64,000 nt of DNA from Knoellia sp. Soil729 (GTDB taxonomy: Bacteria > Actinomycetota > Actinomycetes > Actinomycetales > Dermatophilaceae), in contig NZ_LMSA01000005.1 of assembly GCF_001427985.1 (NCBI RefSeq), forward strand, positions 95,042 to 159,041. The letters are read 5' to 3'. A program made the translations under genes and the position numbers. Every line of letters begins with the position of its first letter. The stretch's first letter is position 1. The notes below the pieces were generated by a model. The model was not told the DNA's origin and did no database searches. It worked only from the letters and a program-made list of their open reading frames with translations. This document shows positions 1 through 61,655 of this stretch, piece after piece.

Positions 1-1137
1 ACCGAGCGCGAGGCCGGCCGTCTCCAGCGCCGTCCACACACCACTCATCGCCCCACCCCTGGCCCGGCCGGCCTCCTCGATCACGTCCGGGAGCATCGCC
101 AGCGGGAAGAGCTGCATCCCGGCATACGCGACACCACCTCCCGCAAGGGCGAGCACCGACAGCCACGTCCACCCGAGCGCGAGCGCCGGCACCTGCACCA
201 CGCACGCCACGACGAAGAGCCACGACGACGCAAGGTATGCCGTCCGCTTGCCATGCGTTGCGGCATACCGCTTCCACGCCGGCATGACGACGAGAGCGGG
301 TGCGACCACCGCGGCGAAGAGCACGCTCACCATCGACTGCGAACCGAGCAGGTAGGTCGCGACGTACTGCGCCGCCGCGAGGACGATCCCGGTGGCCAAA
401 GCCTGCAGCACGAAGACGACGAGAAGCGATCGGTAGCGGGGCAGCTCGCGGATCGCGTCCAGCCCGGCCCGGAATGAGGGCGGCGCCTCCCCGGAACCAC
501 GGTGTGCCGTGTGGCTCTCGTGACCACGCAGGCTGGCCACCGTTGCGAGCATCCCCAGAGACAGGACGATCGCGGACACGACTGCCATGACGAGGTAGCC
601 CGACCGGCCGCCGCCCAGGGCGTCGCGAACCCCCGGGGCGCCGGCACCGAAGACAAGGATCGCGAGCGCGAGGACCCCCACGCGCCACGCCATCATCCGA
701 GTGCGCTCGGCATAGTCGTTGGTGAGGTCCGCCGGCACCGCGATGTAGGGCACCTGGAAGAGGCTGAACGACGTGGTGGCGAGGACGAATGCGACGACGA
801 CCCACACTGCCGCGAGCCCGCTCGACAGACCGGACGGGACGGCGAACATCCCGATGAACCCCGGGGGCAGGGTCAGCGCGCCGAGCGCCATGAGCCGGTG
901 TCGCGACCCCCGGGACGACAGCTCGTGGTCGCTGCGGGCACCGATCGCCGGGTCGATGACGACGTCCCAGACCTTGGGGAGAAGCACGACGACGGCAGCC
1001 AGCACGGCGGCGACCCCGAGCGTGTCCGTGAGGTAGTAGGCGAGGACGAGGCCGGGAAGGGTGCCGAAGCCGCCGGTGCCGACACTTCCCGCGGCATACC
1101 CGGCCGTCTGGGCGCGGGTGAGTCTCGCACTGGGCAT
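1..1137 (-). CDS. GPH-family (MelB-like) MFS sugar transporter, C-terminus cut by window edge
   Basis: Membrane symporter of the major facilitator superfamily. The reading frame is open from an ATG at 1137 down to base 1 (379 codons), so the C-terminus lies outside the window. The translation has many hydrophobic segments, and residues 50-75 read VLLPKVWDVVIDPAIGARSD, the K-D-x-x-x-DP-x-x-G loop typical of the glycoside-pentoside-hexuronide (GPH) family. A second family feature, FQVPYIAVPADLTNDYAERT, follows near residue 130. Substrate unknown; usually a sugar with Na+ or H+. It is divergent from the flavoprotein at 1245. The family call is good; substrate cannot be inferred. Confidence 0.85.
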   Translation of the reverse strand, partial: MPSARLTRAQTAGYAAGSVGTGGFGTLPGLVLAYYLTDTLGVAAVLAAVVVLLPKVWDVVIDPAIGARSDHELSSRGSRHRLMALGALTLPPGFIGMFAVPSGLSSGLAAVWVVVAFVLATTSFSLFQVPYIAVPADLTNDYAERTRMMAWRVGVLALAILVFGAGAPGVRDALGGGRSGYLVMAVVSAIVLSLGMLATVASLRGHESHTAHRGSGEAPPSFRAGLDAIRELPRYRSLLVVFVLQALATGIVLAAAQYVATYLLGSQSMVSVLFAAVVAPALVVMPAWKRYAATHGKRTAYLASSWLFVVACVVQVPALALGWTWLSVLALAGGGVAYAGMQLFPLAMLPDVIEEAGRARGGAMSGVWTALETAGLALG

Positions 1138-1175
1138 GCCCGAAGTATGTCGGGCGGCGAGCGGTGTGGGGCGGG

Positions 1176-1200
1176 GTTTTGCACGGCATGCTGTGGGTAG
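1176..1200 (+). promoter_or_regulatory. SigB/SigF-type stress promoter, GTTT-N15-GGGTAG
   Basis: GTTT at 1176-1179 and GGGTAG at 1195-1200 are separated by exactly 15 bases, the spacing and sequence of actinobacterial SigB/SigF-class general-stress promoters. It lies 44 bases upstream of the GTG start of the flavoprotein. The same arrangement recurs at 4454, 6283 and 8271, which makes chance unlikely. Function is inferred from the consensus. Confidence 0.7.
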
Positions 1201-1244
1201 GCCCACTGTGTCGATGTGCACGCGAGGAAAGGTCAGGTGGCGAT

Positions 1245-3333: not shown

Positions 3334-3338
3334 GGAGA

Positions 3339-11200: not shown

Positions 11201-12264
11201 CTCAGGCTCGACCGGCCGGCCGACCAAGCCGCGAGGACCTCGTCGGCGAAACGGCCTCCGAGTAGCTGGCTCGCCTGGATGCCGAACACCAGGTCGGCCC
11301 TGAGCTCGGGTTCGCGCTCCACGAGCGGAGCGAGCACCTCGCGACGCAGGATCTGCTCGTGGACCGCATCTGCCTCGACGTGCTCGGCGTAGTAGTACTC
11401 GGTGTGCGGGCCGCACCCGAGGCGTCGCGCTGCCTTCACCAGCCGGGCCGAGCCCGGCGAGGAGGTCAGCTCGATCACGGCGAACTGTCCGACCGATGCC
11501 CCGCGCAGCTCGCGCCGCAAGCCGCACAGGGTCATGAGGTTGACCTCGGCCAGCACCGTCCCGCTGATGCGGTCGAGCTCAGCACCGTAGGCCGAGGGCA
11601 GACCCAGCTCGCGCATCATCTCGGCATACAGCTCCGAGTGCATGGCACTGTGGCGGCCTGCGCCGTACTCGTCGTGCTCGACGGCGACCAGCCCGGCCTT
11701 CGCAGGGCCGTCCAGTCGCGAGACCACGAGGAGCTGCGGGTCGGCCTCCTTGAGGTGGTAGGCCGAGCGGTGCGAGACGTACTCACGGAACTGCTCGATC
11801 GTTCCCAGGGTGGCCAGGTGCTGCGAGACGCTGGGTTGGCCGACCGACTCACGCAGGAGCGCCGCGAGCTCGGCATCGAGGTCATCCCCACCCGGGACGT
11901 CACGGCGCAGGGCCTCGAGGAAGATCGCCTCCAGCTCGAGCCGCAGACCGAGCAGGTGGACGTCCCACTCCATGGCGTCGGGCACGCCGTCGAACCCGCG
12001 GTAGTGCAGCTCGTAGCAGACGTACAACGCCAGGTGCAGGTCCTCCCCGTAGGGGTCGATGACGCGGGGGCACGGGAACGAGCCCTCGTCCCGCCCCGCG
12101 CACAGGTCGATCACGGCCTGCGAGATGGGGCCCCTCGCGGCCGGCAGCCGGGGCCGGACAGCAACGGGCGCCTCCGTCGCCCGAGCAGTCTGCGCCGACG
12201 TCTCCGGAGGAGTCCGCGGCTGGCCAGACGCCGACTTCTCGGTGTCCCTCGCGGCGGCGGTCAT
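11197..12264 (-). CDS. Iron-containing redox enzyme, heme-oxygenase-like di-iron family
   Basis: A 355-residue protein. After a disordered ~45-residue N-terminus it is all-helical and carries the ligand pattern of heme-oxygenase-like di-iron enzymes: EHDEYGAGRHSAMHS (residues ~196-210), and YAEHVEADAVHE (~292-303) with the D-x-x-H helix. Members of this fold oxidise or cleave amino- and fatty-acid-derived substrates (UndA, SznF and BesC types). Start at ATG 12264, overlapping the CDGSH gene stop by 4 bases. The adjacent CDGSH protein is a plausible electron donor. Product unknown. Confidence 0.85.
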   Translation of the reverse strand: MTAAARDTEKSASGQPRTPPETSAQTARATEAPVAVRPRLPAARGPISQAVIDLCAGRDEGSFPCPRVIDPYGEDLHLALYVCYELHYRGFDGVPDAMEWDVHLLGLRLELEAIFLEALRRDVPGGDDLDAELAALLRESVGQPSVSQHLATLGTIEQFREYVSHRSAYHLKEADPQLLVVSRLDGPAKAGLVAVEHDEYGAGRHSAMHSELYAEMMRELGLPSAYGAELDRISGTVLAEVNLMTLCGLRRELRGASVGQFAVIELTSSPGSARLVKAARRLGCGPHTEYYYAEHVEADAVHEQILRREVLAPLVEREPELRADLVFGIQASQLLGGRFADEVLAAWSAGRSSLR

Positions 12265-14101: not shown

Positions 14102-15030
14102 GCGCTCGCTCCTTCACCAAGCGCGCCCAGCACCTGTCCCTGGTGCTCGACCTCACCCTCGGTCAGGGAGAGATATGCCTCCTCGAGGGACTGCTCCACC
14201 TCCGCGAGATGGTGAAGGGGTATGCCGTGTGCGTGCGCGAGCTCTCCGACCTCGCTCGCGACCAGGCCACCGACCTCGAGCTCCCCCGGTCCCGAGCGGG
14301 TCACCGTGACGTCGGGACCCAGCGCGTTTGCCAGATCATCGACCTGAGGCGTGCGCACGCGGATGCGGCGGCCGCCCAGGCCGCCGAGCATCCCGGCGAT
14401 GTCCTCGTCCGCGATGAGGCGCCCCCTGCCGATGACGACGACGCGATCGGCGATGAGCTGCATCTCGCTCATGAGGTGGCTCGACACCAGGACCGTGCGA
14501 CCCTCGTCGGCGAGCCCCCTGAACAGCGTCCGAATCCAGCGCACGCCGTCGAGGTCGAGGCCGTTCACCGGCTCGTCGAAGAGCAGGACGGGCGGGTCAC
14601 CCAGGAGCGCCGCGGCGATGCCCAGTCGCTGGCGCATCCCCAGCGAGTAGCCCTTCACCCGTCGGCCCGCCGCACCCCCCAGGCCGACCTGGTCGATGAC
14701 CTCCTCCACCCGGGCGAGCGGAACTCCATTGCTGCGAGCGCCGATCCGCAGATGCGCGCGGCCGGTACGGCCTGGGTGCATGGCACCCGCGTCAAGGAGC
14801 GCGCCGATCTCGCGCAGCGGCGCGGGGAAGTCGACGTAGCGCCGGCCGCCCACCGACGAGGTCCCCGCGGTGGGCCGGTCCAGTCCCAGGATCATGCGCA
14901 TGGTCGTCGACTTGCCAGCCCCGTTCGGACCGAGGAAGCCGGTCACCTTCCCCGACTCCACGTCGAAGGTGAGGTCGTCGACCGCCGGCACCCCGGCATA
15001 CAGTTTTGTCAGCCCCTGAACCCTGATCAT
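14098..15030 (-). CDS. ABC transporter ATP-binding protein
   Basis: A 310-residue ATPase: Walker A GPNGAGKS (~residues 35-42), signature YSLGMRQRL (~128), Walker B VLLFDEP (~150) and the switch His in VSSHLMSE. A C-terminal ~90-residue extension is typical of DrrA/CcmA-like ATPases paired with ABC-2 permeases. Start at ATG 15030. It is transcribed ahead of the permease gene with a 4-base overlap. Confidence 0.92.
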   Translation of the reverse strand: MIRVQGLTKLYAGVPAVDDLTFDVESGKVTGFLGPNGAGKSTTMRMILGLDRPTAGTSSVGGRRYVDFPAPLREIGALLDAGAMHPGRTGRAHLRIGARSNGVPLARVEEVIDQVGLGGAAGRRVKGYSLGMRQRLGIAAALLGDPPVLLFDEPVNGLDLDGVRWIRTLFRGLADEGRTVLVSSHLMSEMQLIADRVVVIGRGRLIADEDIAGMLGGLGGRRIRVRTPQVDDLANALGPDVTVTRSGPGELEVGGLVASEVGELAHAHGIPLHHLAEVEQSLEEAYLSLTEGEVEHQGQVLGALGEGASA

Positions 15031-32069: not shown

Positions 32070-32126
32070 GGGCAGAGCGGGCGGCATACCTGCTGTGGAA
32101 GTTGTCGAAAAAGGTTGGGGAGCAGC

Positions 32127-39853: not shown

Positions 39854-40654
39854 GTGAGCGATGAAGCCGAGTTCGAGCAGGACGGCGACGTCACGTGGAT
39901 CCGGATCGGGGACTTCGCCCAGTCCGCGGTGTCGATTGCCGACCCGGAGAACCTCGTCTTCGAGTACGTCCAGCACCTGGCCCTGTGCATCGACGCCTTC
40001 TTCGCACGGCCTGGGCCGGTGCGGGTGACGCACGTCGGCGGGGCCGGGCTGACGTTGGCGCGGTGGGTGCACGCCACCCGGCCGGGGTCGCCGCAGATCG
40101 TCCTGGAGCCCGACGTCGCGCTCACCGAGGCGGTGCGGCGCGAGCTGCCGCTGCCACGCGGTCACCGGATCCGGGTCCGCCCCCAGACGGGAGAGGCCGG
40201 CTTCGCGTCACTGGCCGACGCCAGTGCGGACCTCGTGATCCTCGACGCCTACGTCGACGGCCGGGTCCCCGCCTCCCTCACCACGGTCGAGTGGCTGAGC
40301 GAGGTGGCACGCGTCCTGGCGCCTGGCGGTCTCTTCCTCGCGAACCTCGGCGACCGTCCCGGACTTCGGTATGCCGGCCGCGTCGCCTCCGGTGCCCGGG
40401 CCGCGCTGGGTCCGGGCTCCCAGACGGCCTACGTCGGGCTGCAGCAGGTCCTCAAGAACAAGGGGTTCGGCAACGTCGTGCTCATGGCGTCGCGCAGCCC
40501 CCTGCCTCTGTTCGAGATGCGTCGCGCGACGGCCCGGGTGCCCCTGCCCACCGGCGTGGTGCCGCCGGCCGAGGTGCTGTCACGCAGCGCCGGCGCCGCA
40601 CCGTTCAGCGCGGATGGCGACGACACCTCGGCGTCCCCGGTCCCACCCACCTGA
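39854..40654 (+). CDS. Spermidine-synthase-like (polyamine aminopropyltransferase fold) protein
   Basis: A 266-residue class I methyltransferase-fold protein. VRVTHVGGAGLTLARWVHAT (motif I), IVLEPDVALTEAVRR (acidic residue after strand 2) and LVILDAYVDGRVPASLTT (motif IV) resemble spermidine synthases, and the Tyr/Asp pattern of the polyamine site is only partly conserved. GTG 39854 is chosen; a TTG at 39842 would fall in the terminator stem. Many actinobacterial members of this type are annotated fused MFS/spermidine synthase or hypothetical; the donor and acceptor are unknown. Confidence 0.78.
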   Translation: MSDEAEFEQDGDVTWIRIGDFAQSAVSIADPENLVFEYVQHLALCIDAFFARPGPVRVTHVGGAGLTLARWVHATRPGSPQIVLEPDVALTEAVRRELPLPRGHRIRVRPQTGEAGFASLADASADLVILDAYVDGRVPASLTTVEWLSEVARVLAPGGLFLANLGDRPGLRYAGRVASGARAALGPGSQTAYVGLQQVLKNKGFGNVVLMASRSPLPLFEMRRATARVPLPTGVVPPAEVLSRSAGAAPFSADGDDTSASPVPPT

Positions 40655-42299: not shown

Positions 42300-45200
42300 T
42301 CAGCCGACGTGGACGCGGGCGTTGCGGAACATCCGCATCCAGGGCGAGACGTCCTCGACCCGGCCGCTCGTCCACGACATCTGCGCGTTGCGCTGCACTC
42401 GCTCGGGGTGAGGCATCATCGCGGTGAACCGGCCATCGGTCGTCGTCACCGACGTGAGTCCGTCGGGGGAACCGTTGGGGTTCGAGGGGTATGCCGTCGC
42501 GACTCCACCATCGTTGTCGACGAAGCGCGCCACTCGCTGGACGGAGGCCTCGTCGCCGCGCGCGGAGAAGTTGGCGAACCCCTCACCGTGGGCGACGGCG
42601 ATCGGGATGCGCGACCCGGCCATGCCGGTCGTGAAGATCGACGGCGACTCGAGGACCTCGACGAGCGAGAGGCGGGCCTCGTACTGCTCGGACCGGTTGC
42701 GGGTGAAGCGCGGCCACGCCTCCGCCCCCGGGATGAGGTCGGCCAGGGCGGCGAACATCTGGGCGCCGTTGCAGATGCCGAGCCCGAACGTGTCGCCGCG
42801 GGAGAAGAACCGTGAGAACTCCTGCGTCAGCCGGGAGTTGAAGAGCACCGAACGCGCCCAGCCCTCCCCGGCACCGAGGGTGTCGCCGTAGGAGAAGCCA
42901 CCGCACGCCACCAGTCCGACGACGTCGGAGAGCGAGGCGCGCCCGGTTTGGAGGTCGGTCATGTGGACGTCGAGCGTCTCGAACCCGGCACGGTGGAACG
43001 CGTAGGCCGTCTCGACGTGGGAGTTCACGCCCTGCTCCCGCAGGACGGCGACCCGGGGCCGCGCCCCCACGGTGAGGTAGGGCGCCGTGATGTCGTCGTT
43101 CGGGTCGAACGAGGTCGACACGTGCAGCCCGGGGTCGTCATCGGCGCCGAACCGGGCGTGCTCCTCGTCGGCGCACTCGGGGTTGTCCCGCAGCGACGAG
43201 ATGCGCCACGACACCTCGTCCCACGCCTGAGCCAGGTCCACGGTGGACTCGTCGAGCGGCACCGCGCCGTCGACCGCGACGATGACCCGGCGCTCGGGGT
43301 GCGTGCCGCCGATGATCGAGGCGAACTCGCCGACGCCCGCGTTGACCAGCACCTCGCGGACCTCGCCCACCGAGTCGGAGCGCACGCCGAGCACTGCACC
43401 CAGCTCCTCGGTGAAGAGCGCAGCCACGGAGTCCACCGCGATCTCGACGCCGAGCCCACCGGCGAACGCCATCTCGCACACGGTCGCCCACAGCCCACCG
43501 TCGGAACGGTCGTGGTAGGCCGAGACCAGCCCACGAGAGCGCAGCTCGCTCACGGCGTTGGCCAGGGCCACCAGCCGCGACGGGTCGTCCAGGTCAGGAA
43601 CGTCGCCGCCGAAGACGCCCGACACCTGCGCGAGCATCGAGCCGCCCAAGCGGTTGGCGCCAGCGCCAAGGTCCACCAACACCAGCGCCGAGTCGGGCTG
43701 CAGCTGCGGCGTGAGGGTCCCGCGGACGTCGGGCAGCGCAGCGAAGGCCGAGACCACGAGCGACACCGGTGACGTGACCTGACGCGACTGGCCGGACTCG
43801 GGATCGGTCCACCTGGTGCGCATCGACATCGAGTCCTTGCCGACCGGCACAGAGATCCCCAGGGCAGGGCACAGCTCCATCGCCACGGCCTCGACCGTGT
43901 CGAACAGGGCGGCGTCCTCGCCGTCCTCGCCCGCCGCGGCCATCCAGTTGCAGGACAGCTTGACGGCCGACAGTGACGGCAAGGGAGCAGCGAGAAGGTT
44001 CGTCAACGCCTCGCCGACCGCCATGCGACCGGAGGCGGGAGCGTTGACGGAGGCGAGCGGCATACGCTCCCCCGAGGCCATGGCCTCACCCGCGAAGCCG
44101 ACATGGTCGGCCAAGGTGACCGCCACGTCGGCGACGGGCACCTGCCACGGACCAACGAGCTGGTCGCGATGCGTGAACCCGCCGACGGTGCGGTCGCCGA
44201 TGGTGATGAGGAAGCGCTTGCTCGCGACCGAGGGGTGACGAAGGAGGGCGTATGCCGCGTCGCGCACGTCGACGTCGCTCACCTGGAGCGGGTCCCCGGT
44301 CCACGACACCCGGGTCGCGTCGCGGGTCATGCGCGGGGGCTTGCCGAGCAGGACCTCCATGGGCATGTCGATGGGCACGTCGTCGTCGGACTCACCGGCC
44401 ACGAGCAGCTGGGCGTCGTCGGCCGCGACGCCGATGACCGCCATCGGGCACCGTTCGCGCTCGGCAAAGGACTCGAGCAGCTCCAGCGACTCGGGCGCGA
44501 TGGCCAGGACGTAGCGCTCCTGGCTCTCGTTGACCCAGATCTCCTTGGGGGCGAGCCCGGACTCCTCGAGTTGGACGGCCGAGAGGTCGAAGCGGGCACC
44601 CAGGCCGGCGTCGTTGACCAGTTCGGGGAAGGCGTTGGACAGCCCACCCGCGCCGACGTCGTGGATCGCGAGCACGGGGTTGTCGGCGCCCAGGGACCAG
44701 CAGGAGTTGATGACCTCCTGAGCGCGCCGCTCCATCTCGGGGTTGCCGCGCTGCACGGAGTTGAAGTCGAGGTCGGCGGCGTTGGTGCCCGACGCCATCG
44801 ACGACGCGGCGCCACCACCCATGCCGATGCGCATGCCGGGCCCGCCGATCTGCACGAGCAGCGAGCCGGCGGGGAAGAGGATCTTCTCGGTCTGGTCGGC
44901 GCTGATCGAGCCGAGGCCACCGGCGCTCATGATCGGCTTGTGGTAGCCGCGGCGCACCCCGTCGACGGTCTGCTCGTAGACGCGGAAGAACCCACCGAGG
45001 CCCGGACGGCCGAACTCGTTGTTGAAGGCCGCAGCCCCGATCGGGCCGTCGACCATGATCTCGAGCGGGGTGGCGATGTGCTCGGGCGCGCCATAGACCT
45101 CGCGCTCCCACGGCTCGTCGGTGCCGGGCAGGTTGAGGTTCGAGACGACGAACCCGGTGAGCCCAGCCTTGGGCGCCGACCCTCGGCCGGTCGCGCCCTC

Positions 45201-46202
45201 GTCACGGATCTCGCCGCCGGCACCGGTCGCGGCGCCGGGGAACGGCGAGATCGCAGTCGGGTGGTTGTGGGTCTCGACCTTCATGAGGACGTGGACGTCC
45301 TCCTCGCGAGCGGCATAGGGTGTCGGCCCGTCACCACGCTGGGGCAGCCAGCGCTCGATCCGGCGGCCCTCCATGACGGAGGCGTTGTCCTTGTAGGCGA
45401 CGACCGTGCCGGCGCCGGCGACCTTCTCGGTGTGCCGGATCATCCCGAACAGGCTCTTGACCTGCGGCTCACCGTCGACGATGAAGTCGGCGTTGAAGAT
45501 CTTGTGGCGGCAGTGCTCGGAGTTGGCCTGCGCGAACATCATCAGCTCGACGTCGGTCGGGTTGCGCCGCAGTCCCGTGAACGACTCGGCCAGGTAGTCG
45601 ATCTCGTCGTCGGACAGGGCGAGCCCGTATGCCGTGTTGGCACCTTCCAGCGCCTCTCGCCCACCGCCGAGGACATCGACGTGCTCCATCGGCTCGGCCT
45701 CGCGCTCCTCGAAGAGGGCGGCGAAGGCCTCGTGGGTGGGCAGGGCGGTCTCGGTCATGCGGTCGTGCAGGACCGCTGCGACGGCGCCCCATCTGTCAGC
45801 ATCGGTCGCCGTACCTGTGTGGTCGACTCCTTCGAGCACGAACTCGGTGACCCGCTCGACCCGGCGGATGTCGATGCCGCAGTTGTGGACGATGTCGGTG
45901 GCCTTGCTCGCCCACGGCGAGATCGTGCCGAGGCGGGGGCCGACCACGACGAGGGCGCTCGGATCCGTGGAGGGTGCGTCACCGGCATACGGATCGCCGT
46001 AGGTCAGGAGTTCGGTCAGCCGCGCCGCGGCGTCGACAGTGAGTGGCTGCTCACTCGCGACCCAGTGCACGAAGCGCGCGCTGACGGCGGTGACGGCGGG
46101 ATCGACGGCCTGCAGTCGCGCCAGCAGCGCTCGGGCCCGGAAGGGGGAGAGCGCAGAGCCACCCTCGACGGTCGTCAGGGCGAGCTCATGCGTCGAAACC
46201 AT
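42300..46202 (-). CDS. purL: Phosphoribosylformylglycinamidine synthase, single-chain large PurL
   Basis: Fourth step of purine synthesis (FGAR to FGAM). A 1300-residue single chain holding all domains: an N-terminal PurS-like/linker part, the ATP-binding synthase domain ([47 protein letters not shown]), a second inactive half, and a C-terminal class I glutaminase ([31 protein letters not shown] with the nucleophile Cys, MMPHPERVQ). Mycobacteria and Streptomyces instead use separate PurS, PurQ and short PurL. Start ATG 46202 behind GGAGAC. Monocistronic as far as visible. Confidence 0.95.
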
Positions 46203-48642: not shown

Positions 48643-49338
48643 TTGCCCGAGATCCGCGTCAGCCACGTCAGCCACTCCTTCGGCGACGGCTCGGCGCGTC
48701 GGACGGTGCTGACCGACCTCGACGTCACGCTCACCGAGCCCCGCATCGGCATCGTGGGAGCCAACGGCTCGGGCAAGTCGACCTTCGTGCGCCTTCTCAA
48801 CGGGCTCGTCCACCCCGACTCGGGGACCGTGACCGTCGACGGCCGCGACACGGTGCGCGACGGTCGCGAGGTCCGGCGCCGGGTGGGCTTCTGCTTCACC
48901 GACCCGGACGCGCAGATCGTCATGCCGACCGTCGCCGAGGACGTCGCGTTCGGGCTGCGTCGTCGAGGTCTCACCAAGGACGAGGTGCGGGCGCGCACGC
49001 AGGGTGCGCTCACGGCATACGGGCTGTCCGGTCATGCCGACCACCCCGCCCACCTGCTCTCCGGTGGCCAGAAGCAGCTACTCGCGCTGGCGAGCGTCCT
49101 CGTCACCGAGCCGGACCTCCTCGTCCTCGACGAGCCGACGACCCTGCTCGACCTGCGCAACGCCGCCATGGTCCGCAGCGTCGTCGACGGTCTCGCGCAG
49201 CAGGTCGTGCTCGTCACCCACCACCTCGACCTGCTCGACGGCTTCGACCGCGTGCTCGTCTTCAACGAGGGACGCATCGTCCACGACGGAGCGCCTGCGG
49301 GCGCCGTTGTCGCCTACCGCGCGCTCGCCACGGCCTGA
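48643..49338 (+). CDS. bioM: ECF biotin transporter ATPase BioM
   Basis: A 231-residue ABC ATPase: Walker A IVGANGSGKST, Q-loop DPDAQIVMPTVAEDVAFGL, signature LLSGGQKQLLALASVL, Walker B LLVLDEPTTLLDLRN and H-switch VTHHLDLL. No ATG or GTG fits near the conserved N-terminus; the likely start is TTG 48643 (a CTG lies two codons upstream). It is fourteen bases after bioY and overlaps bioN by one base (TGATG). It powers biotin uptake. Confidence 0.9.
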   Translation: MPEIRVSHVSHSFGDGSARRTVLTDLDVTLTEPRIGIVGANGSGKSTFVRLLNGLVHPDSGTVTVDGRDTVRDGREVRRRVGFCFTDPDAQIVMPTVAEDVAFGLRRRGLTKDEVRARTQGALTAYGLSGHADHPAHLLSGGQKQLLALASVLVTEPDLLVLDEPTTLLDLRNAAMVRSVVDGLAQQVVLVTHHLDLLDGFDRVLVFNEGRIVHDGAPAGAVVAYRALATA

Positions 49339-49946
49339 TGGCAGCCCAGGCCGTCCCGCTCTACCTGCCCGGCAGCTCCGTCGTGCACCGCACCGGCGCC
49401 GGGACCAAGCTGCTCGTCCTGCTCGCCGCCGGCGTGGCGCTGGCCCTGTGGCGGTCACCGTGGCAGGTTGCGCTCGCCTTCGCGCTCGTCCTTGCCGGGT
49501 ATGCCGTGGCGCGCCTGCCGCTGCGCACCCTCGTCCGCCAGCTGCTCGGGCTGGCGTGGGTCGCCGTGCCGCTGTTGGCCTTCCAGTGGATCTTCGCGTC
49601 GTGGCAGACCGGCATCGGCGTGGTGGGGTCGTTCGTGTCGATGGTGCTGCTCGCGGGGCTGGTGACCCTCACGACCCGGACGACGGCCATGGTCGACGTC
49701 GTCGTCCGTGCCTGTGGGTGGCTGCGACGTCTCGGTGTCGACCCCGAGCGCGTCGGCCTCATGCTCGCCCTGGGCATCCGCTCGGTGCACGTGGTGATCG
49801 GGCTGGCGCAGGAGGTGCGCGAGGCCCAGCACGCGCGTGGCCTGCGGGCCAGCCCACGAGCGTTCGCGGTGCCGCTCATTGTTCGTTCGCTGCGGCACGC
49901 GGACCGTCTCGGCGAGGCCCTCACCGCCCGCGGTGTCGACGACTGA
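49338..49946 (+). CDS. bioN: ECF transporter transmembrane protein BioN
   Basis: A 202-residue membrane protein: YLPGSSVVHRTGAGTKLLVL at the N-terminus, four to five helices, and the coupling-helix signatures AQEVREAQHARGLRAS and RSLRHADRLGEALTARG that dock onto the ATPases. It completes a BioYMN biotin uptake system. The start codon overlaps the bioM stop by one base. Confidence 0.92.
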   Translation: MAAQAVPLYLPGSSVVHRTGAGTKLLVLLAAGVALALWRSPWQVALAFALVLAGYAVARLPLRTLVRQLLGLAWVAVPLLAFQWIFASWQTGIGVVGSFVSMVLLAGLVTLTTRTTAMVDVVVRACGWLRRLGVDPERVGLMLALGIRSVHVVIGLAQEVREAQHARGLRASPRAFAVPLIVRSLRHADRLGEALTARGVDD

Positions 49947-50445: not shown

Positions 50446-51375
50446 ATGGACTTCCGGATCTTCACCGAACCCCAGCAGGGCGCGACCTACGACGACCTCC
50501 TCGCCGTGGCCCGCACGACCGAGGACGCGGGCTACGACGCGTTCTTCCGGTCCGACCACTACCTGCACATGGGCGGAGACGGCGCGCCGGGCCCCACCGA
50601 CGCGTGGACGACGCTCGCCGGGCTGGCTCGCGACACGCAGCGCGTCCGCCTCGGGACCCTCGTCACGGCCGCGACCTTCCGGCTGCCCGGCCCGCTCGCC
50701 GTCCAGGTCGCCAACGTCGACCAGATGTCCGGGGGCCGGGTCGAGATGGGACTCGGTGCCGGGTGGTTCGAGGCCGAGCACACGGCATACGGGATCCCCT
50801 TCCCCGACGTCCGGGAGCGCTTCGACCGGCTCGAGGAGCAGCTCGCGGTGATCACCGGACTGTGGACGACGGACAGGAGCGAGACCTTCGACCACGACGG
50901 CTCGCACTACCCGATCGTCGGTGCGCCCGGGCTCGGCCAGCCCGACGACCGCGGTGGCATTCCCGTCATCATCGGCGGCGCGGGCAAGCGACGCACGCCG
51001 GCGCTCGCCGCCCGCTATGCCAACGAGTTCAACTCGGCCTTCCAGGGCGTCGCCGAGAGCAGCGAGCTTTTCGCGCGCGTCCGCGCCGCGTGCGAGGACC
51101 ATCGACGTGACCCCGATGAGCTGGTGTTGTCCGTGGCCAACGTCCTCTGCCTGGGCAACGACGACGCCACCCTCCGGCGACGTGCCGCGGCCATCTCGCG
51201 AGACGTCGACGAGCTGCGCGCCAACGGTCTCGCCGGCTCCAGCGACGAGGTCGTCGACAAGATCGGCCGTTTCGCCGAGGTGGGCACGACGCGCTTCTAC
51301 CTGCAGGTGCTCGACCTCAGCGACCTCGAACACATCGAGGAGTTCGCCGCGACTGTCGTGCCGCAGCTCGCCTGA
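50446..51375 (+). CDS. LLM-class F420-dependent oxidoreductase (TIGR03560-like)
   Basis: A 309-residue luciferase-fold protein. FRIFTEPQQGATYDDLLAVA, DAFFRSDHYLHM, RLGTLVTAATFRLPGPLAVQ, GRVEMGLGAGWFEAEHTAYG and GIPVIIGGAGKRRTPALAAR match the F420-dependent TIGR03560 subgroup. Start ATG 50446 with a very short leader. Reduced F420 could come from fgd. Substrate unknown; it is convergent with purD, 6 bases apart. Confidence 0.87.
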   Translation: MDFRIFTEPQQGATYDDLLAVARTTEDAGYDAFFRSDHYLHMGGDGAPGPTDAWTTLAGLARDTQRVRLGTLVTAATFRLPGPLAVQVANVDQMSGGRVEMGLGAGWFEAEHTAYGIPFPDVRERFDRLEEQLAVITGLWTTDRSETFDHDGSHYPIVGAPGLGQPDDRGGIPVIIGGAGKRRTPALAARYANEFNSAFQGVAESSELFARVRAACEDHRRDPDELVLSVANVLCLGNDDATLRRRAAAISRDVDELRANGLAGSSDEVVDKIGRFAEVGTTRFYLQVLDLSDLEHIEEFAATVVPQLA

Positions 51376-51381: not shown

Positions 51382-52662
51382 TCAGCCGACGGCGATCTCG
51401 TCACGCGACGCCCTGAGGGCGATGTCGCTGCGGTGGTGCGAGCCCTCGAGCTGCACGAGGGCGACCGCGGCATAGGCCCGTTCGCGCGCCTGCACGAGGT
51501 CGGGGCCGGTCGCCACGACTGAGAGCACCCGTCCACCGGCGGACACCAGGGCTCCGTCACCGTCCAGCGCCGTCCCGGCGTGGAGCACGTATGCCGTCGG
51601 CACGCCTTCGACGTCACCCAGCCCCGCGATGGAGTCGCCCGTGCGCGGCGTCCCCGGGTAGTTGTGGGAGGCGACGACCACGGTCACGGCGTGCTCCGGC
51701 GACCACCGCAGGTTCTGGTAGTCGTCGAGCCGTCCGGTCGCTGCCGACTTGAGCAGTCCACCCAGTGGGGTGAGGAGCCGGGCCAGGACGACCTGGGTCT
51801 CGGGGTCGCCGAAGCGGACGTTGAACTCGATGACGCGGGGGCCGCGCGACGTCATGGCCAGTCCGATGAAGAGCACGCCGACGAATGGCGTGCCGATCCG
51901 GCGCATCTCGTCGATCGTCGGCTGCGCCACCCGGGCGACGAGGTCGTCGGTGAGCCCCTGCGGGGCCCATCCCAACGGGCTGTAGGCGCCCATGCCACCG
52001 GTGTTGGGGCCGGCGTCGTCGTCCCCGACCCGCTTGAAGTCCTGGGCCGGCGACAGCGGCAGCGCGGTGACACCGTCGCTGAGGACGAAGAGCGAGACCT
52101 CCGGGCCGTCAAGGAACTCCTCGACGACGACGCTGCCGCCCTCCTTGGCGAGGCACGCCTGCGCGTGGGCCAGTGCCTCCTCGCGGTCCTCGGTGACGAC
52201 GACACCCTTGCCCGCCGCGAGCCCGTCCTCCTTGATGACGTGGGGTGCACCGAGCGCGTCCATGGCATCGGCCACCTGCTCGATCGTCGTGCACACGTGG
52301 GCGAGGCCCGTCGGGACGTCAGCGGCCGACATGATGTCCTTGGCGAACGCCTTGCTGCCCTCGAGGCGGGCCGCGTCCGCCGACGGCCCGAAGACGTCGA
52401 AGCCGGCGTCGCGGAGCACGTCTGCCACCCCGGCGACGAGCGGGGCCTCGGGCCCGATGATGACGAGCTCGACGGCATGACGCTGGGCGATCGCGAGGAC
52501 GGCCGCCGCGTCGGTGAGGTCGGGGAGGGGCTCGCACAGCGCGAGCGCGTCGATCCCCGGGTTGCCGGGAGCGGCGATGACCGCGTCGACGACCTGGTCC
52601 TCCACGAGGCTGCGGACGATGGCGTGCTCACGGGCACCGGAGCCGACGACGAGGACCTTCAT
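51382..52662 (-). CDS. purD: Phosphoribosylamine-glycine ligase
   Basis: Second step of purine synthesis. A 426-residue ATP-grasp enzyme: KVLVVGSGAREHAIVRSLVE at the N-terminus, AAPGNPGID, VIIGPEAPLVAGVADVLRDA, VIKEDGLAAGKGVVV, DDAGPNTGGMGAYSPLGWAP and EFNVRFGDPETQVVLARL. Start ATG 52662 at the conserved N-terminus; the longer in-frame extension is unsupported. A GC-rich hairpin at 52752 lies in its upstream region, shared with the divergent regulator at 52956. Confidence 0.95.
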   Translation of the reverse strand: MKVLVVGSGAREHAIVRSLVEDQVVDAVIAAPGNPGIDALALCEPLPDLTDAAAVLAIAQRHAVELVIIGPEAPLVAGVADVLRDAGFDVFGPSADAARLEGSKAFAKDIMSAADVPTGLAHVCTTIEQVADAMDALGAPHVIKEDGLAAGKGVVVTEDREEALAHAQACLAKEGGSVVVEEFLDGPEVSLFVLSDGVTALPLSPAQDFKRVGDDDAGPNTGGMGAYSPLGWAPQGLTDDLVARVAQPTIDEMRRIGTPFVGVLFIGLAMTSRGPRVIEFNVRFGDPETQVVLARLLTPLGGLLKSAATGRLDDYQNLRWSPEHAVTVVVASHNYPGTPRTGDSIAGLGDVEGVPTAYVLHAGTALDGDGALVSAGGRVLSVVATGPDLVQARERAYAAVALVQLEGSHHRSDIALRASRDEIAVG

Positions 52663-52751
52663 GGAGGGCAAGCCTAGGGGCGCACGAGGTGCGTGCAGAC
52701 GGCGGTCCGCGACCCGGCATACGCGACCGGTAGGCGCCCGGAAAGGTGTGA

Positions 52752-54091: not shown

Positions 54092-56305
54092 GTGACGACC
54101 ACGCGCCCCGGTGCCGCTGACACCTCGGCTGATGTCGCCCGTGAGATCGAGCTCGAACAGGCTCACGTCGACCGCGTCTACGCCGAGCTCGAGAAGGCAG
54201 CCCTGCGGGCCAACGCCGTCGAGGCCGACGGCATGGCCCGGGGCCGCACGATGCGCACCGGCGACGTCCGCGACGAGGAGATGACCGGCCTCTTCGAGCG
54301 CGACGCCCTCGTGTATGCCGCGGCCAAGCGCCGTGCCGCGATCGAGAAGCAGTACGAAGGACTCGTCTTCGGACGGCTCGACCTCGGCGACATGGACACC
54401 CCGGCGGCCGAGCGGGACGTCAGGCACATCGGTCGGCTCGGGGTGCGCGACGACGACTACGAGCCGCTGGTGATCGACTGGCGTGCGCCCGCCGCCGCGG
54501 CGTTCTACCGCGCCACCCCCGTGGACCCCATGGGCGTGCTCCGCCGACGCGTCCTGCGCTGCAGCGGGGCCACCGTCATCGGTGCCGAGGACGACCTCAT
54601 GGTGCCCGAGGCGCCCGACGACCTCGTCGTCCTCGGCGACGGCGCCCTCATCGCCGCCCTCACCCGCAGCCGCGGCCGCCAGATGCGCGACATCGTCGCG
54701 ACCATCCAGCGCCACCAGGACGAGGCCATCCGGGCGCCCTCACGCGGCGTCACCGAGATCACCGGTGGTCCGGGCACGGGCAAGACCGTCGTGGCGCTGC
54801 ACCGCGCGGCCTACCTCCTCTACTCGGAGCGTCGTCGCTTCGAGTCCGGCGGCATCCTCGTGGTCGGCCCGTCCGCCGCCTACACCGCCTACATCGAGCG
54901 CGTGCTGCCCTCACTCGGCGAGGACACCGTCGCACTGCGTGCGCTCGGCGACCTCGTCGACGGCGTGACCGCGACCCGCCTCGACCAGCCCGAGGTCGCC
55001 GCCGTCAAGGGTTCGCTGCGCATCCGCCGGCTGCTCTCTCGGGCCGCCTCGCGCCCGCCCCAGGGGGCTCCGTCCCAGCTGCGCGTCTTCATCAACGGAC
55101 ATGCCGTCCGTCTGGACGAGGCTGTCCTGCAACGCATTCGCCGTCAGGTGCTGCGCTCGAGCCAGCACAACGTGGCCACGAAGCAGGCTCGCGAGCAGCT
55201 GGCCCAGGAGGCCTGGCGGTCGGTGCGGCAGGGCGATCGCGACGAGTTCTTCGACGCCTTCGACTCCTCACGTGACATCGACGAGTTCCTCCGGTCGTGG
55301 TGGCCCCAGGTCGACCCGCGCGAGGTCCTGCTCACGCTCGCCGACACGGACCGCACCTATGCGCTCGCTCGAGGCGTCCTCGACCACGAGGAGGCTGCGG
55401 CCCTGTCGCACTCCATGCGTGAGGCGCTCGAGCTCGGCTCGTGGTCGGTCTCGGACGTCGCCCTCATCGACGACCTCTCCGCCAAGCTCGGCCAGGTGCA
55501 GGAGCCCGAGGCCGAGGAACGTGGCTTCTACGACATCGAGGAGTTCGACGACCTGTCGTCCTACGGCGTGCTGGACGTCAGGGCGGGCGTCGACCGCCGC
55601 GTGCATGACCCATCGAGCACGAGCGTCGTCACCCCCACCGATGCCCGGGCCCGGCTCCTCCACGGACGCATCGAGAGGCCGTCGAGCAGCGCCCACGTCC
55701 TCGTCGACGAGGCCCAGGACCTCTCACCCATGCAGTGGCGCACGCTCGCCCGTCGCGGCCGCAACGCGTCGTGGACCGTGGTGGGCGACGCCGCCCAGGC
55801 CTCGTGGGGCGACCTCGAGGAGGCGCGGGCGGCACGTCTCGAGGCCTACGGGTCGCAGCAGCTGCGCGGCTTCCACATGGACACCAACTACCGCAACGCC
55901 CGCGAGATCTTCGACTACGCGCGCGACGTCATCCTGCCGCTGGTGCCCGACGCGGACATCCCGGAGGCGGTGCGCGAGACCGGGGTCGACCCCGTCGACC
56001 GCGACGTGGAGACGCCGCCGGTGGCCTCCGTGGAGGACGCGGTCCACGAGCTCCTCGACGAGGTTGAAGGTTCCATCGCGGTCATCACGCCGCGTCGGTG
56101 GGCCGATGGGCTGGTGCACCTTGACGGCGCTGGCGACGGCCGGGTGCAGGTCATCGACCCGCTCTCGACCAAGGGCCTGGAGTGGGACGCGACCGTGGTG
56201 CTGGACCCCGACGCGATCGTTGAGGAGTCGCCCGGTGGCGTGCGCGTGCTCTACGTCGTGCTCACCCGCGCAGCCCACCGCATGTCGGTCCTGCGCCCCA
56301 CCTGA
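54092..56305 (+). CDS. HelD/HelR-type superfamily I helicase-like ATPase
   Basis: A 737-residue protein. N-terminal coiled coil (ADVAREIELEQAHVDRVYAE), then LVIDWRAPAAAAFYRATPVD, Walker A TGGPGTGKTVVALHRAAYLLY-type segment (~residues 224-240), DEAQDLSPMQWRTLARR (motif II), TNYRNAREIFDYA (motif IV/V) and the terminal RVLYVVLTRAAHRMSVL (motif VI). This is the layout of HelD, and of the actinobacterial HelR that removes stalled or rifamycin-bound RNA polymerase. GTG start at 54092. I see no rifamycin-associated element upstream, so an antibiotic-induced role is not supported by the promoter. Confidence 0.87.
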   Translation: MTTTRPGAADTSADVAREIELEQAHVDRVYAELEKAALRANAVEADGMARGRTMRTGDVRDEEMTGLFERDALVYAAAKRRAAIEKQYEGLVFGRLDLGDMDTPAAERDVRHIGRLGVRDDDYEPLVIDWRAPAAAAFYRATPVDPMGVLRRRVLRCSGATVIGAEDDLMVPEAPDDLVVLGDGALIAALTRSRGRQMRDIVATIQRHQDEAIRAPSRGVTEITGGPGTGKTVVALHRAAYLLYSERRRFESGGILVVGPSAAYTAYIERVLPSLGEDTVALRALGDLVDGVTATRLDQPEVAAVKGSLRIRRLLSRAASRPPQGAPSQLRVFINGHAVRLDEAVLQRIRRQVLRSSQHNVATKQAREQLAQEAWRSVRQGDRDEFFDAFDSSRDIDEFLRSWWPQVDPREVLLTLADTDRTYALARGVLDHEEAAALSHSMREALELGSWSVSDVALIDDLSAKLGQVQEPEAEERGFYDIEEFDDLSSYGVLDVRAGVDRRVHDPSSTSVVTPTDARARLLHGRIERPSSSAHVLVDEAQDLSPMQWRTLARRGRNASWTVVGDAAQASWGDLEEARAARLEAYGSQQLRGFHMDTNYRNAREIFDYARDVILPLVPDADIPEAVRETGVDPVDRDVETPPVASVEDAVHELLDEVEGSIAVITPRRWADGLVHLDGAGDGRVQVIDPLSTKGLEWDATVVLDPDAIVEESPGGVRVLYVVLTRAAHRMSVLRPT

Positions 56306-56419: not shown

Positions 56420-56445
56420 GAAGTTGAGGTCCAAGCAGGGGTCAG

Positions 56446-57840
<1,395 letters not shown>

Positions 57841-58647
57841 CTATCGGGTATGCCGTGTGCGCACCGATGGCCCGTGGCGCGTGGACGCGAGCGCAGCACC
57901 CAGCTGGAAGCGGGTGTCGACCCCGTGCAGGGACATGAGAGCAGCGATCCGGCGCCTCACGGTGCGCAGCCCCAGCCCGAGGAACCGGGCGATCGCCTCG
58001 TCCTTGAGACCCATCCCGAGGAGCTCCAAAAGTCGCTCGTCACCGGGTTGGCTCGCAGCGAAGGGGACCGCGTGGGCATGCTCCCACGCCAGGTCGAAGT
58101 ACGCCGTCAGGGTGGAGATGAGCAAGGGGCCGCGGATGAGGACGTAGCCGGAGCCGACGTCGCCCCAGCGCGCCAGCCCCACGGCGCCGACGTCACCGAA
58201 GACCGCGAACTCCGAACCGACCTCCGGCAGGAGTCGTTGCTCCTCCCCCACTGCGGCCCAGGACCGGAGCCACTGCACCCCCCGCGGGGTATCCAGGGCG
58301 GCAGCGGGATAGATCGTGCGCTGAGCGTTGCCCCGGCTGATCCACTCCTGGTTGTCGCGCATGGTCGTGTCGTCCAACGCCGGGCCCGAGTCGACGACCA
58401 TGGCGACGTTGCGCAGGATGCCGGTGGACTCCTCGAGGAGGCGCCGCACCACGACGGGCGCCACCTCGTCGCTGATCGGGTCGACCCCCGGGGTGGGACG
58501 GCTCCGGTCGGTGTCCAGGAGTCGGTCGAGGAGGGCGCGGATCGTCGTGAGGTCGCGAGTCCGCTCCTCGATGCGCGCGTCCTCGCGGTCCAGGTACTCC
58601 TGGAGCACCCGATCGGCTGGTGCACCATCTGCCGAGGTCAGGGGCAT
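57841..58647 (-). CDS. TrmB/LuxR-type helix-turn-helix regulator, paralogue upstream of purA
   Basis: A 268-residue regulator. It has a coiled segment near the N-terminus (LQEYLDREDARIEERTRDLT), a middle sensor-like part (RNVAMVVDSGPALDDTTMRD), and a C-terminal HTH LLGMGLKDEAIARFLGLGLR with TVRRRIAALMSLHGVDTRFQ. The ending resembles that of the regulator at 52956, but it lacks the N-terminal winged helix. ATG 58647 follows GGAGGAGAAC, an ideal ribosome site. Placement upstream of purA is suggestive but unproven as control. Confidence 0.8.
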   Translation of the reverse strand: MPLTSADGAPADRVLQEYLDREDARIEERTRDLTTIRALLDRLLDTDRSRPTPGVDPISDEVAPVVVRRLLEESTGILRNVAMVVDSGPALDDTTMRDNQEWISRGNAQRTIYPAAALDTPRGVQWLRSWAAVGEEQRLLPEVGSEFAVFGDVGAVGLARWGDVGSGYVLIRGPLLISTLTAYFDLAWEHAHAVPFAASQPGDERLLELLGMGLKDEAIARFLGLGLRTVRRRIAALMSLHGVDTRFQLGAALASTRHGPSVRTRHTR

Positions 58648-58845: not shown

Positions 58846-58889
58846 CGCGTGTCCTCCGGTATGCCGGCCGCCCGCCCGGGCGCAGCGGC

Positions 58890-59294: not shown

Positions 59295-59306
59295 GCGCTC
59301 CCCCTC

Positions 59307-60335
59307 TCAGGCCTGGTGCGTTCCGGCAGAACGCAGGTTCTGGCACGCCTCGACGACTCGCGCTGCCATCCCGGCCTCGGCCGCCTTGCCCCAGGCACGC
59401 GGGTCGTACTGCTTCTTGTTGCCGACCTCGCCGTCGATCTTGAGGACGCCGTCGTAGTTCTTGAACATCCACTCGGCCACGGGACGCGAGAAGGCGTACT
59501 GGGTGTCGGTGTCGACGTTCATCTTGACCACGCCGTAGTCGCAGGCGGCCGCGATCTCGTCGGCGCTCGAGCCGGAGCCACCGTGGAAGACGAGGTGGAA
59601 CGGCTTCTCGTCGGCGGTCTTGAGCTCCTTGTGGACGGCGTCCTGTGCCGCCTTCAGCACCTCGGGCTTGAGCTTGACGTTGCCGGGCTTGTAGACACCG
59701 TGCACGTTGCCGAAGGTCAGCGCGGTCATGTAGTAGCCGTTCTCGCCGAGGCCGAGGGCACGTGCTGTGGCGATGGCGTCCTCGGGCGTCGAGTAGAGCT
59801 TGTCGTTGATCTCGTTGGCGACGCCGTCCTCCTCGCCACCGACGACGCCCACCTCGATCTCGAGGATGATGTTGGCGGCGTGGCAGAGTGCGAGCAGCTC
59901 CTCGGCGATCTTGAGGTTCTCGTCGAGCGGCACGGCCGAGCCGTCCCACATGTGCGACTGGAAGATCGGCAGACCGCCCGCCTTGACCCGCTGGGTGCTC
60001 GCCGCGATGAGGGGGCGCACGAAGCCGTCGAGCTTGTCCTTGGGGCAGTGGTCGGTGTGCAGCGCAATGTTGACCGGGTAGTTCTTCGCGACCTCCTGCG
60101 CGTAGGCGGCGAGCGCGAGCGAACCGGTCACCATGTCCTTGACCGTCGAACCCGAGGCGTACTCCCCACCACCGGTGGAGACCTGGATGATGCCGTCGCT
60201 ACCGGCCTCGGCGAACCCGCGGATCGCCGCAGTGATCGTCTGGCTGGAGGTGATGTTGATCGCCGGGTAGGCGAACGAGCCGTTCTTGGCCCGGTCGAGC
60301 ATGTCGGCGTAGATCTCGGGGGTGGCGATGGGCAT
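59307..60335 (-). CDS. fba: Class II fructose-bisphosphate aldolase
   Basis: A 342-residue zinc-dependent aldolase cleaving fructose-1,6-bisphosphate. Catalytic and metal residues are visible in NIALHTDHCPKDKLDGFVRP (His and Asp), EIEVGVVGGEEDGVANEIND (Glu), GNVHGVY (His), FHGGSGSS (His, phosphate loop) and MNVDTDTQYAF. Start ATG 60335 behind AAGGAG. DUF3151 follows in the operon. Confidence 0.95.
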   Translation of the reverse strand: MPIATPEIYADMLDRAKNGSFAYPAINITSSQTITAAIRGFAEAGSDGIIQVSTGGGEYASGSTVKDMVTGSLALAAYAQEVAKNYPVNIALHTDHCPKDKLDGFVRPLIAASTQRVKAGGLPIFQSHMWDGSAVPLDENLKIAEELLALCHAANIILEIEVGVVGGEEDGVANEINDKLYSTPEDAIATARALGLGENGYYMTALTFGNVHGVYKPGNVKLKPEVLKAAQDAVHKELKTADEKPFHLVFHGGSGSSADEIAAACDYGVVKMNVDTDTQYAFSRPVAEWMFKNYDGVLKIDGEVGNKKQYDPRAWGKAAEAGMAARVVEACQNLRSAGTHQA

Positions 60336-60437
60336 GGGGTCTCCTTGTCAGCGGCGAGCAGGATCTCCCCCGATCCTTCCACGCGCCGCCGTGGTGGCAA
60401 CAGAGCGCCCAACGACCGGCCGGTAACGATCAGCGGG

Positions 60438-61655
60438 CTATGCCAGCGCGCTGAGCCGCGAGGACAGGTGGGCCCGCTCGACCTCGTTGTCGCACAACGC
60501 GATGGCCGACGCGAAGTGCTCGCGTGACGACGCCACGTCCCCTACGCGGGCAAGGAGCTCACCGCGCACCGCGGGCAGGCGGTGCCCCGGCAGGTCCAGG
60601 TCCTCGAGCAGCGCCAGGCCCGCTCGCGGCCCGTCCGCCTCGGCCACTGCGACGGCTCTCGCCACCCGCACGGCAGGTGAGGGAGAGACCTGCTCGAGCA
60701 CGGCATACAGGCTGGCAATGCGGTCCCACCGCGTCGCGTCGGGCGAGGGTGAGGTGGCGTGCTCGGCGGCGATCTGCGCCTGCAGCCGATAGCTCTGTGC
60801 GAGCGCGCTCGTCCCGGGCCGGGTCGCTTCGAGGAACGCCAGTGCCTCGGCGATCTCGTCGTGGTGCCAGAGGCTGCGGTCCTGGTCGGGCAGGAGGACG
60901 AGCGTCCCGTCGGCCGCGACCCGCGCGTCGCGCCGTGAGTGCTGCAGGGTCATGAGGGCGATGAGGTTGCCGAGCGCCGGTGTCGGGTGCAGCGCATCGG
61001 CCACGCGCGCCAGCCGGATCGCCTCTCCAGCGAGCTCGGCGCGCAGGAGGTCCGGTCCGCTTCCCGGCGCGTAGCCGGCCGTGAAGGCGAGGTATGCCGT
61101 GTGCCCGACGACGTCGAGCCGCTCGCCGATCGCTTCCCGTCCGGGGATGGTGAACGGGATGCCGGCGGTGACGATCTTCTTCTTGGCGCGAGTGATGCGG
61201 GCCGCCATCGTCGTCTCGGGCACGAGGAAGAGTCTCGCGACGTCGGCTGTCGAGATGCCCATGACGAGGCGGAGCGAGAGGGCGCTCGCACCCTCAGGCG
61301 GCAACGCGGGGTGGGCGCACATGAGGACCAGTCGCAGCAGGTCGTCGTCGACCACCTCACCGGCGTCTGCCATGACACCCTCCCGGGTTCGGTGCTCGGC
61401 CTCGACGGTGAGCAGGGGTTCCTTGCGCGCGGCCATCGCCTCGGCACGCAGCCGGTCGAGGATCCGGCGACGTGCGGCCGTGACGAGCCAGGCACTCGGG
61501 TTGTCGGGCTCGCCGTCCTGCGGCCAGCGGGTGTGGGCGGTTGCAACGGCGTCGGCGAGCGCGTCCTCGACGAGGTCCAGACGACGGAACTGCGCGAGGA
61601 GCAGGGCGACGAGTCGGCCCCACTCCTCGCGCACGACGCGCTCGAGGGCTGTCAC
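60438..61655 (-). CDS. ECF42-type sigma factor with TPR-like C-terminus
   Basis: A 405-residue sigma factor. Region 2: VVREEWGRLVALLLAQFRRL and VEDALADAVATAHTRWPQDG; region 4 includes LSLRLVMGISTADVARLFLV. The long C-terminal part (~residues 170-405, TPR-like) and the adjacent DGPF/YCII proteins match the ECF42 group, in which the extension is required for activity. The GTG at 61655 overlaps the YCII stop by GTGA. No anti-sigma gene is present, as is typical of ECF42. Confidence 0.87.
   Translation of the reverse strand: MTALERVVREEWGRLVALLLAQFRRLDLVEDALADAVATAHTRWPQDGEPDNPSAWLVTAARRRILDRLRAEAMAARKEPLLTVEAEHRTREGVMADAGEVVDDDLLRLVLMCAHPALPPEGASALSLRLVMGISTADVARLFLVPETTMAARITRAKKKIVTAGIPFTIPGREAIGERLDVVGHTAYLAFTAGYAPGSGPDLLRAELAGEAIRLARVADALHPTPALGNLIALMTLQHSRRDARVAADGTLVLLPDQDRSLWHHDEIAEALAFLEATRPGTSALAQSYRLQAQIAAEHATSPSPDATRWDRIASLYAVLEQVSPSPAVRVARAVAVAEADGPRAGLALLEDLDLPGHRLPAVRGELLARVGDVASSREHFASAIALCDNEVERAHLSSRLSALA

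Follow-up and report, generated by a model that had tools for sequence, protein, structure and literature searches.

Why does a single 8-bp word recur throughout the DNA of the actinobacterium Knoellia sp. Soil729? The question is raised by a 64,000-nucleotide stretch of its genome (contig NZ_LMSA01000005.1, positions 95,042 to 159,041; hereafter the window, meaning the whole stretch that we analysed), for which an earlier note had reported about 37 copies of an octamer, 20 in one orientation and 17 in the other, where two or three would be expected. We likewise count 37 copies, 17 of GTATGCCG and 20 of CGGCATAC, against 2.2 expected from base composition over the 64 kb, and 37 of the 38 GTATGCC words in the window are completed by G, as the note's claim of a true octamer implies. 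Its statement that the copies lie in several frames is also borne out: 32 sites fall inside predicted genes in five orientation/frame classes (18 in sense frame 2, read as Tyr-Ala; 11 in antisense frame 1, read as Ala-Tyr; and one in each of three others), including the Arg-Met-Pro reading in purL at 44058. Five sites are not wholly within one predicted gene (22346, 32082, 37585, 52715 and 58859), and the second, fourth and fifth of these had been named as spacer copies. The whole genome (3.6 Mb in eight contigs) holds 2,138 octamers, 1,055 and 1,083 by strand or about one per 1.7 kb, and 89 copies (38 + 51) of the reversed word that served as a control. All nine genomes of the genus carry 1,971–3,277 octamers each. 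The octamer is a real, strong and family-specific genome watermark.

The excess is not accounted for by the proteins encoded. When synonymous codons were shuffled within each gene (60 shuffles), the 195 coding octamers of a 436-kb sample of this genome, made up of 20 stretches (the window and 19 others), compared with a shuffled mean of 18.8 (standard deviation 4.0; maximum of the 60, 29), and the 379 of the congener G003 with 36.8. Each of the six orientation/frame classes is enriched 4- to 29-fold over the shuffles. Noncoding DNA is denser in octamers than coding DNA (0.71 versus 0.50 per kb here, 0.85 versus 0.57 in G003), and convergent, divergent and tandem spacers are alike in density. 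We also scored permitted positions, the coding places where the encoded protein sequence allows the octamer. These are filled at 38–63% in six of eight octamer-rich samples (195 of 509 in our genome, 54 of 86 in G015) and at 26–27% in the other two; four octamer-poor genomes of the family fill 0 of 345 and have zero octamers in 100 kb each. Comparison with congeners shows TAT retained at 72 of 77 codons within octamers versus 33 of 111 elsewhere, and GCA at 59 of 63 versus 78 of 383. Octamer density is lowest in the most codon-biased genes. As a proxy for foreign genes the codon score was of no use, the least-biased genes not being clearly low in octamers.

A check proposed with the original observation was comparison with an order-6 Markov model. 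For the 226 octamers of the 436-kb sample, models of orders 1–6 expect 5.8, 7.9, 10.3, 42, 128 and 201, and the last of these gives a ratio of ∼1.1 that, taken literally, speaks against enrichment. This maximal-order null is uninformative, however, because its background 6- and 7-mers are largely produced by the motif itself and are thus fragments of it. TATGCC, for example, counted on both strands, occurs 51 times in the 64-kb window versus 2–7 times per 100 kb in four poor genomes. The synonymous shuffles and the 0 of 345 in the poor genomes are non-circular, and both support enrichment. With no single-mismatch word above 72 copies in the sample, the core is a strict octamer.

Within the genus the sites also hold their places. 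Positions 20,001–64,000 of the window, with 29 sites, were aligned with eight congeners at 81–83% identity; 161 of 184 aligned congener octamers are intact (75–100% per species), compared with 24–31% of phase-matched random octamers in the same alignments, and three of the 29 sites could be aligned in no congener. At the rpo locus our genome (G000) shares six of six sites with its congener G002. Where poor genomes were aligned with rich neighbours, one of five and none of five sites are intact, with random words at 0.38 and 0.46. The genes rpoB, rpoC, fusA, tuf and their neighbours carry too few sites for judging how far sites are shared across genera. Site conservation is strong within the genus and weak between genera. 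Together, the shuffles, congener alignment, permitted positions and codon retention strongly support the earlier argument for selection on the DNA itself, or for an equivalent drive.

The distribution of the octamer is both restricted and patchy. We surveyed 186 genomes in 53 genera of the family with the 9-mer GTATGCCGT, which gives too low a count in genera with a preference for C after the core, and found 104 rich, 14 intermediate and 68 poor (background-level) genomes, separated by cut-offs of our own at 40 and 10 per Mb. In a sample of the order (297 genomes, 24 of them from the family), the 273 genomes of other families have at most 177 octamers each and, tiny counts aside, no more than ∼4 times the reversed-word control. 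Across a phylum sample of 296 genomes the sole rich ones are three Dermatophilaceae; among the remaining 293 the maximum is 386 octamers, in 7.5 Mb and with 176 controls. Three genera contain rich and poor species side by side (G378 in g25, G399 in g54 and G328 in g51), and a tree of 19 genomes, in which both kinds were deliberately included and two backbone nodes are weakly supported (0.21 and 0.57), places six poor tips on six separate branches. Among named relatives, Flexivirga endophytica has 2,542 octamers, an uncultured Serinicoccus 1,604 and Agilicoccus flavus 24; Agilicoccus agrees with family member G323 at all four places recorded for that genome. NCBI assigns the three to Dermacoccaceae, Ornithinimicrobiaceae and Dermatophilaceae, respectively, families that GTDB merges as Dermatophilaceae.

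In seven of eight rich samples, drawn from seven genera, the octamer is the top 8-mer by z-score, and in the eighth (G448) it comes second to an overlapping shift of itself. The ten highest-ranking 8-mers of four poor genomes include no replacement dialect, save an unrelated word, GAAGGGGG, in genus g53. That word and CCCCCTTC together number 41 in 100 kb of the octamer-poor genome G359 (stretches L170–L174), against 5.5 expected; C often precedes it, and it bears no clear relation to GC skew in the five stretches. Outside Dermatophilaceae, G727 of family f84 (1.8 Mb) has 161 octamers versus 30 controls, a ratio of ∼5. In genus g16, G023 has 1,142 octamers versus 453 controls (2.5-fold), and neither of the two genomes (G023 and G351) has as many copies of the 9-mer with T as of its control, perhaps a decaying or altered form of the octamer.

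Around the octamer, its exact core, extends a longer, non-palindromic motif that is equally frequent on both strands. At 955 sites, corrected for codon phase, base preferences span about −12 to +37: an A-rich zone from about −12 to −5, A nearly absent at −1 and +1, the preference T G (C/T) G G (C/T) C. C C T T from +1 to +12 (z of 18 for T at +11), with a further preference for T at +29/+30. In 133 isolated noncoding sites the A at −8 and the preferences at +1 to +11 are present as well. Spacing between octamers is close to random, but neighbours within 100 bp are mostly inverted (63 of 74 pairs in eight samples, p = 5e-10; six of nine in our genome's sample). Twenty-four inverted noncoding pairs lie within 40 bp (16 in G003, five in G442, two in G015 and one in G448). 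Of the facing pairs (GTATGCCG..CGGCATAC), 13 of 16 sit 8–53 bp past a stop codon by our own gene calls, versus only three of eight opposite-facing pairs, and five hand-picked pairs fold as full hairpins. Another arrangement occurs at L154:3205–3628 (G349), where six octamers 75–95 bp apart, with four of five neighbour pairs inverted, resemble a small repeat array.

Among the four readings that the earlier note had left side by side (Chi-like sites, FtsK/terminus-orienting motifs, uptake-like sequences and modification targets), the uptake-like one fits best, because of the long asymmetric flanks, the inverted terminator-like pairs, the conservation of position at genus level and the coexistence of rich and poor lineages; the FtsK/terminus and RecBCD-Chi readings are unsupported, as discussed below. 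We therefore consider it fairly probable that the octamer functions as a DNA uptake sequence, marking DNA as self for preferential uptake by natural transformation. At 2,138 copies it falls within the range of known uptake sequences, which have hundreds to thousands of copies per genome (PMC2346458). A more specific picture, in which Gram-positive, high-GC Actinomycetota possess an uptake system with a family-wide password of ∼50 bp around an 8-bp core, a putative surface receptor on the Tad machinery, a drive that fills up to 63% of the permitted synonymous positions and receptor-linked loss in many separate lineages, has in our judgement an even chance of being right.

In such a mechanism the core would be recognised by a putative receptor at the cell surface, which may be a minor Tad pilin or else an accessory DNA-binding protein, and the A- and T-rich flanks would help the duplex to bend. 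The Tad pilus would then bring tagged DNA in, and ComEA and ComEC would pass it on. Since import would favour tagged over untagged alleles, the tag would be restored by homologous recombination wherever the protein sequence tolerates it, a form of transformation drive. Lineages that lose the receptor would keep the machinery while their tags decay, and the inverted pairs have likely been co-opted as transcription terminators. ComEA (with SLBB and HHH domains) and ComEC are encoded in our genome, as is a tad locus whose products include TadE, a TadG-like protein and Flp-like pilins, and we infer that this machinery would read the octamer. In the actinobacterium Micrococcus luteus, transformation is reported to require tad genes (PMC4322843). 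Among the matches listed by our literature searches, mostly of openly accessible papers, the octamer as a word occurs in one unrelated paper, and none of those on uptake sequences in actinobacteria, or on competence or over-represented words in Dermatophilaceae, reports such a motif; as far as these listings show, self-specific DNA uptake has been described for two Gram-negative families only.

Several results weigh against this reading. Across rich genera, 39 of 58 rpo-locus sites are kept, with random words at 0.44–0.62 in the nine directed comparisons; the eight conserved genes around rpoB/rpoC in our genome fill 0 of 14 permitted positions; and near purL the window sites are intact in one of six cases in Serinicoccus and none of three in Flexivirga. 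Even within the genus, G002 shares just five of its 11 rpo-locus sites with our genome (random, 0.49), so sites also turn over. The 133 isolated noncoding sites do not show the T at +29/+30, and the flank signal is weaker outside the genus, where 239 sites have C more often at +1 and an A-rich zone below threshold, with T at +11 and +30 above it. The 436-kb sample of our own genome contains no terminator-type pair. ComEC and TadE have matches in 180 and 181, respectively, of the 186 genomes of the family, irrespective of whether these are rich or poor, so presence of the tag is not mirrored by the machinery. The TadG-like protein has a match in 12 of 26 rich genomes and three of 24 poor ones, and three rich congeners lack it. 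Octamers are scarce in two integrase/transposase-bearing stretches of G003, but these were picked for sparseness, and one octamer in them lies within an integrase-core gene. Finally, the available text of another study of M. luteus mentions no uptake sequence (PMC6667448).

As a switch between rich and poor genomes, ComEC and TadE, which occur in both classes, are not supported, and neither is the TadG-like protein, the single candidate reader tried. The six family genomes without a ComEC match (five rich, one intermediate) are all incomplete or fragmented assemblies. By eye, the ComEA/ComEC neighbourhoods of our genome, G029, G432 and G378 have no obvious differences. As to mobile DNA, Tetrasphaera phage TJE1 has two octamers in 49 kb, and the matches listed for one window protein include no plasmid above 60% identity. 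At L110:7329–18500 of G003 a serine recombinase gene leads ∼11 kb without an octamer, which is probably an integrated element.

Four other explanations compete with the uptake-sequence reading. That the octamer is a by-product of codon or dinucleotide preference has next to no probability: coding octamers do fall mostly on Tyr-Ala and Ala-Tyr, and the maximal-order Markov expectation comes near the observed count (201 versus 226), but the octamer employs TAT and GCA codons that are otherwise seldom retained, all six frames and the spacers are enriched, and four genomes of the same family have no octamer in 100 kb each. Codon or codon-pair preference is ruled out by the shuffles, the filling of permitted positions and the TAT/GCA retention, and with it goes the possibility, named at the outset, that a Tyr-Ala/Ala-Tyr preference alone is responsible. 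We regard as highly improbable a self-mark that spares octamer DNA from a defence or restriction-like system and is unrelated to uptake. Patchy presence among lineages would suit such a mark, as would the apparent scarcity in the two integrase/transposase-bearing stretches, picked as these were because they are sparse; yet no defence system is known to need ∼2,000 exact 8-mers with 50-bp flanks, no search aimed at defence genes having been made.

Readings in terms of replication and repair meet a common obstacle. On the complete G003 chromosome the octamer is oriented 233 leading to 236 lagging (39 of 40 stretches; that at the presumed origin was excluded), and this absence of strand bias speaks against both the FtsK/terminus-orienting option (FtsK-orienting polar sequences, KOPS) and a polar Chi. 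RecBCD-Chi is also rejected for want of the enzyme, RecC (PF04257) being found in none of the nine genomes of the genus and, in the family, in 89 of 186 genomes irrespective of octamer load (44 of 104 rich, 37 of 68 poor). A Chi-like hotspot read single-stranded by another helicase-nuclease, such as AdnAB, the main actinobacterial end-resection enzyme, would agree with a dense, non-palindromic, frame-independent 8-bp word, and with just 89 RecC-bearing genomes another enzyme must act elsewhere. We nevertheless think it unlikely: RecC does not follow the octamer, its RecBCD version is excluded for our genus, the strong polarity of E. coli Chi is absent, and an 8-nt single-stranded site would be expected to have neither inverted pairs nor base preferences over ∼50 bp. 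A structural or housekeeping site, bound by a nucleoid or segregation protein or produced and maintained by a mutational bias linked to methylation or repair, such as has been proposed for the cyanobacterial highly iterated palindrome HIP1, is a slightly stronger though still improbable alternative. High filling of permitted positions, positional conservation and near-random spacing would all fit, and HIP1 is likewise frequent in most cyanobacterial lineages and nearly absent from some (PMC4390886). HIP sites, however, are palindromes tied to methyltransferases (PMC4390886), whereas our octamer is non-palindromic with long asymmetric flanks; the lack of polarity speaks against KOPS-like segregation, and hairpins after stop codons are not predicted. 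A modification target alone would not explain the enrichment.

The sites of the window are collected in the table. The purL gene among them (42303–46205, minus strand) encodes a single-chain PurL of the PRK05297 type, ∼1,300 aa long. Among the best 80 loci its nearest relatives are a few actinobacterial ones (71–74%) and the rest are mostly from Betaproteobacteria, which suggests an old transfer.

Table. Octamer sites in the window, with their setting and their state in aligned congeners.
Position	Strand	Setting	Intact in congeners
120..127	-	in gene 1-1137	
235..242	+	inside gene; inverted pair with 261, 26 bp apart	
261..268	-	inverted pair with 235	
1092..1099	-	exact match	
11622..11629	-	exact match	
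14220..14227	+	antisense frame 2 (His-Gly-Ile-Pro)	
14994..15001	-	exact match	
19877..19884	+	exact match	
21673..21680	-		no congener stretch aligned
21730..21737	-		no congener stretch aligned
22346..22353	+	spans predicted gene edge	no congener stretch aligned
26983..26990	-		5/5 aligned
27101..27108	+		5/5 aligned
29721..29728	-		7/7 aligned
30445..30452	+		7/7 aligned
32082..32089	-	spacer	4/4 aligned
36386..36393	-		8/8
36740..36747	-		7/8
37234..37241	+		8/8
37585..37592	-	spacer	7/8, one gapped
40369..40376	+		7/8
42489..42496	+	purL	5/8, and Serinicoccus L022
44058..44065	-	purL, Arg-Met-Pro frame	8/8
44250..44257	+	purL	7/8
45627..45634	+	purL	8/8
45983..45990	-	purL	8/8
49013..49020	-		8/8
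49499..49506	+		7/8
50783..50790	-		6/7
51589..51596	+		7/8
52715..52722	-	spacer	6/8, one gapped
54313..54320	+	helR-like gene	6/8
57153..57160	-	purA	7/7
57848..57855	+	antisense frame 0	4/7
58859..58866	+	spacer	2/7, three gapped
60701..60708	-		3/4
61092..61099	+		4/4

If the uptake-sequence reading is true, it describes a convergent case in a different phylum, with no outer membrane and a different pilus, and such passwords would arise repeatedly. The rich and poor species found within one genus would be a natural experiment for finding the receptor and for tests of transformation drive. A motif present at up to 63% of its permitted places is, by whichever mechanism, a strong, unexplained force on these genomes and on their codon choice.

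Among known systems, the uptake sequences found in Pasteurellaceae and in Neisseriaceae are a closer match to the octamer than Chi, KOPS or methylation sites are. Chi of E. coli, GCTGGTGG, is strongly polar with replication; like GTATGCCG it is a non-palindromic, frame-independent octamer, but GTATGCCG lacks the polarity, has long flanks and occurs in a genus without RecC. HIP1 (GCGATCGC) resembles GTATGCCG in being a very dense octamer with rich and poor lineages, and differs from it in being palindromic; GTATGCCG has long asymmetric flanks and inverted pairing. The uptake signal sequence (USS) of Haemophilus influenzae is present at ∼1 copy per 1–2 kb in coding and spacer DNA, a density and spread that our octamer resembles. 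In Pasteurellaceae the USS (H. influenzae core AAGTGCGGT) combines, as our octamer does, a strict core with A/T-rich flanks, and the AT-tracts beside the H. influenzae core might help to kink the duplex (PMC7811141). The octamer differs in its unrelated core, in its host, an actinobacterium at 70% GC, in preferences that lie on both sides of the core and reach about +37, and in that a Tad/Flp system, here known from sequence, would serve instead of a type IV pilus. The DNA uptake sequence (DUS) of Neisseriaceae, GCCGTCTGAA and its dialects, is family-wide with thousands of copies and lineage differences, as is the octamer; eight dialects are reported for it (PMC3630211), against one core in the rich genomes sampled here. 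The DUS is bound by ComP, a minor pilin of the type IV class (PMC6370729), a receptor for which no counterpart was identified in octamer carriers, the TadG-like protein being the sole candidate tried. Uptake sequences are reported to occur within terminators in both Pasteurellaceae and Neisseriaceae (PMC13020248), a placement that they appear to share with the inverted octamer pairs after stop codons.

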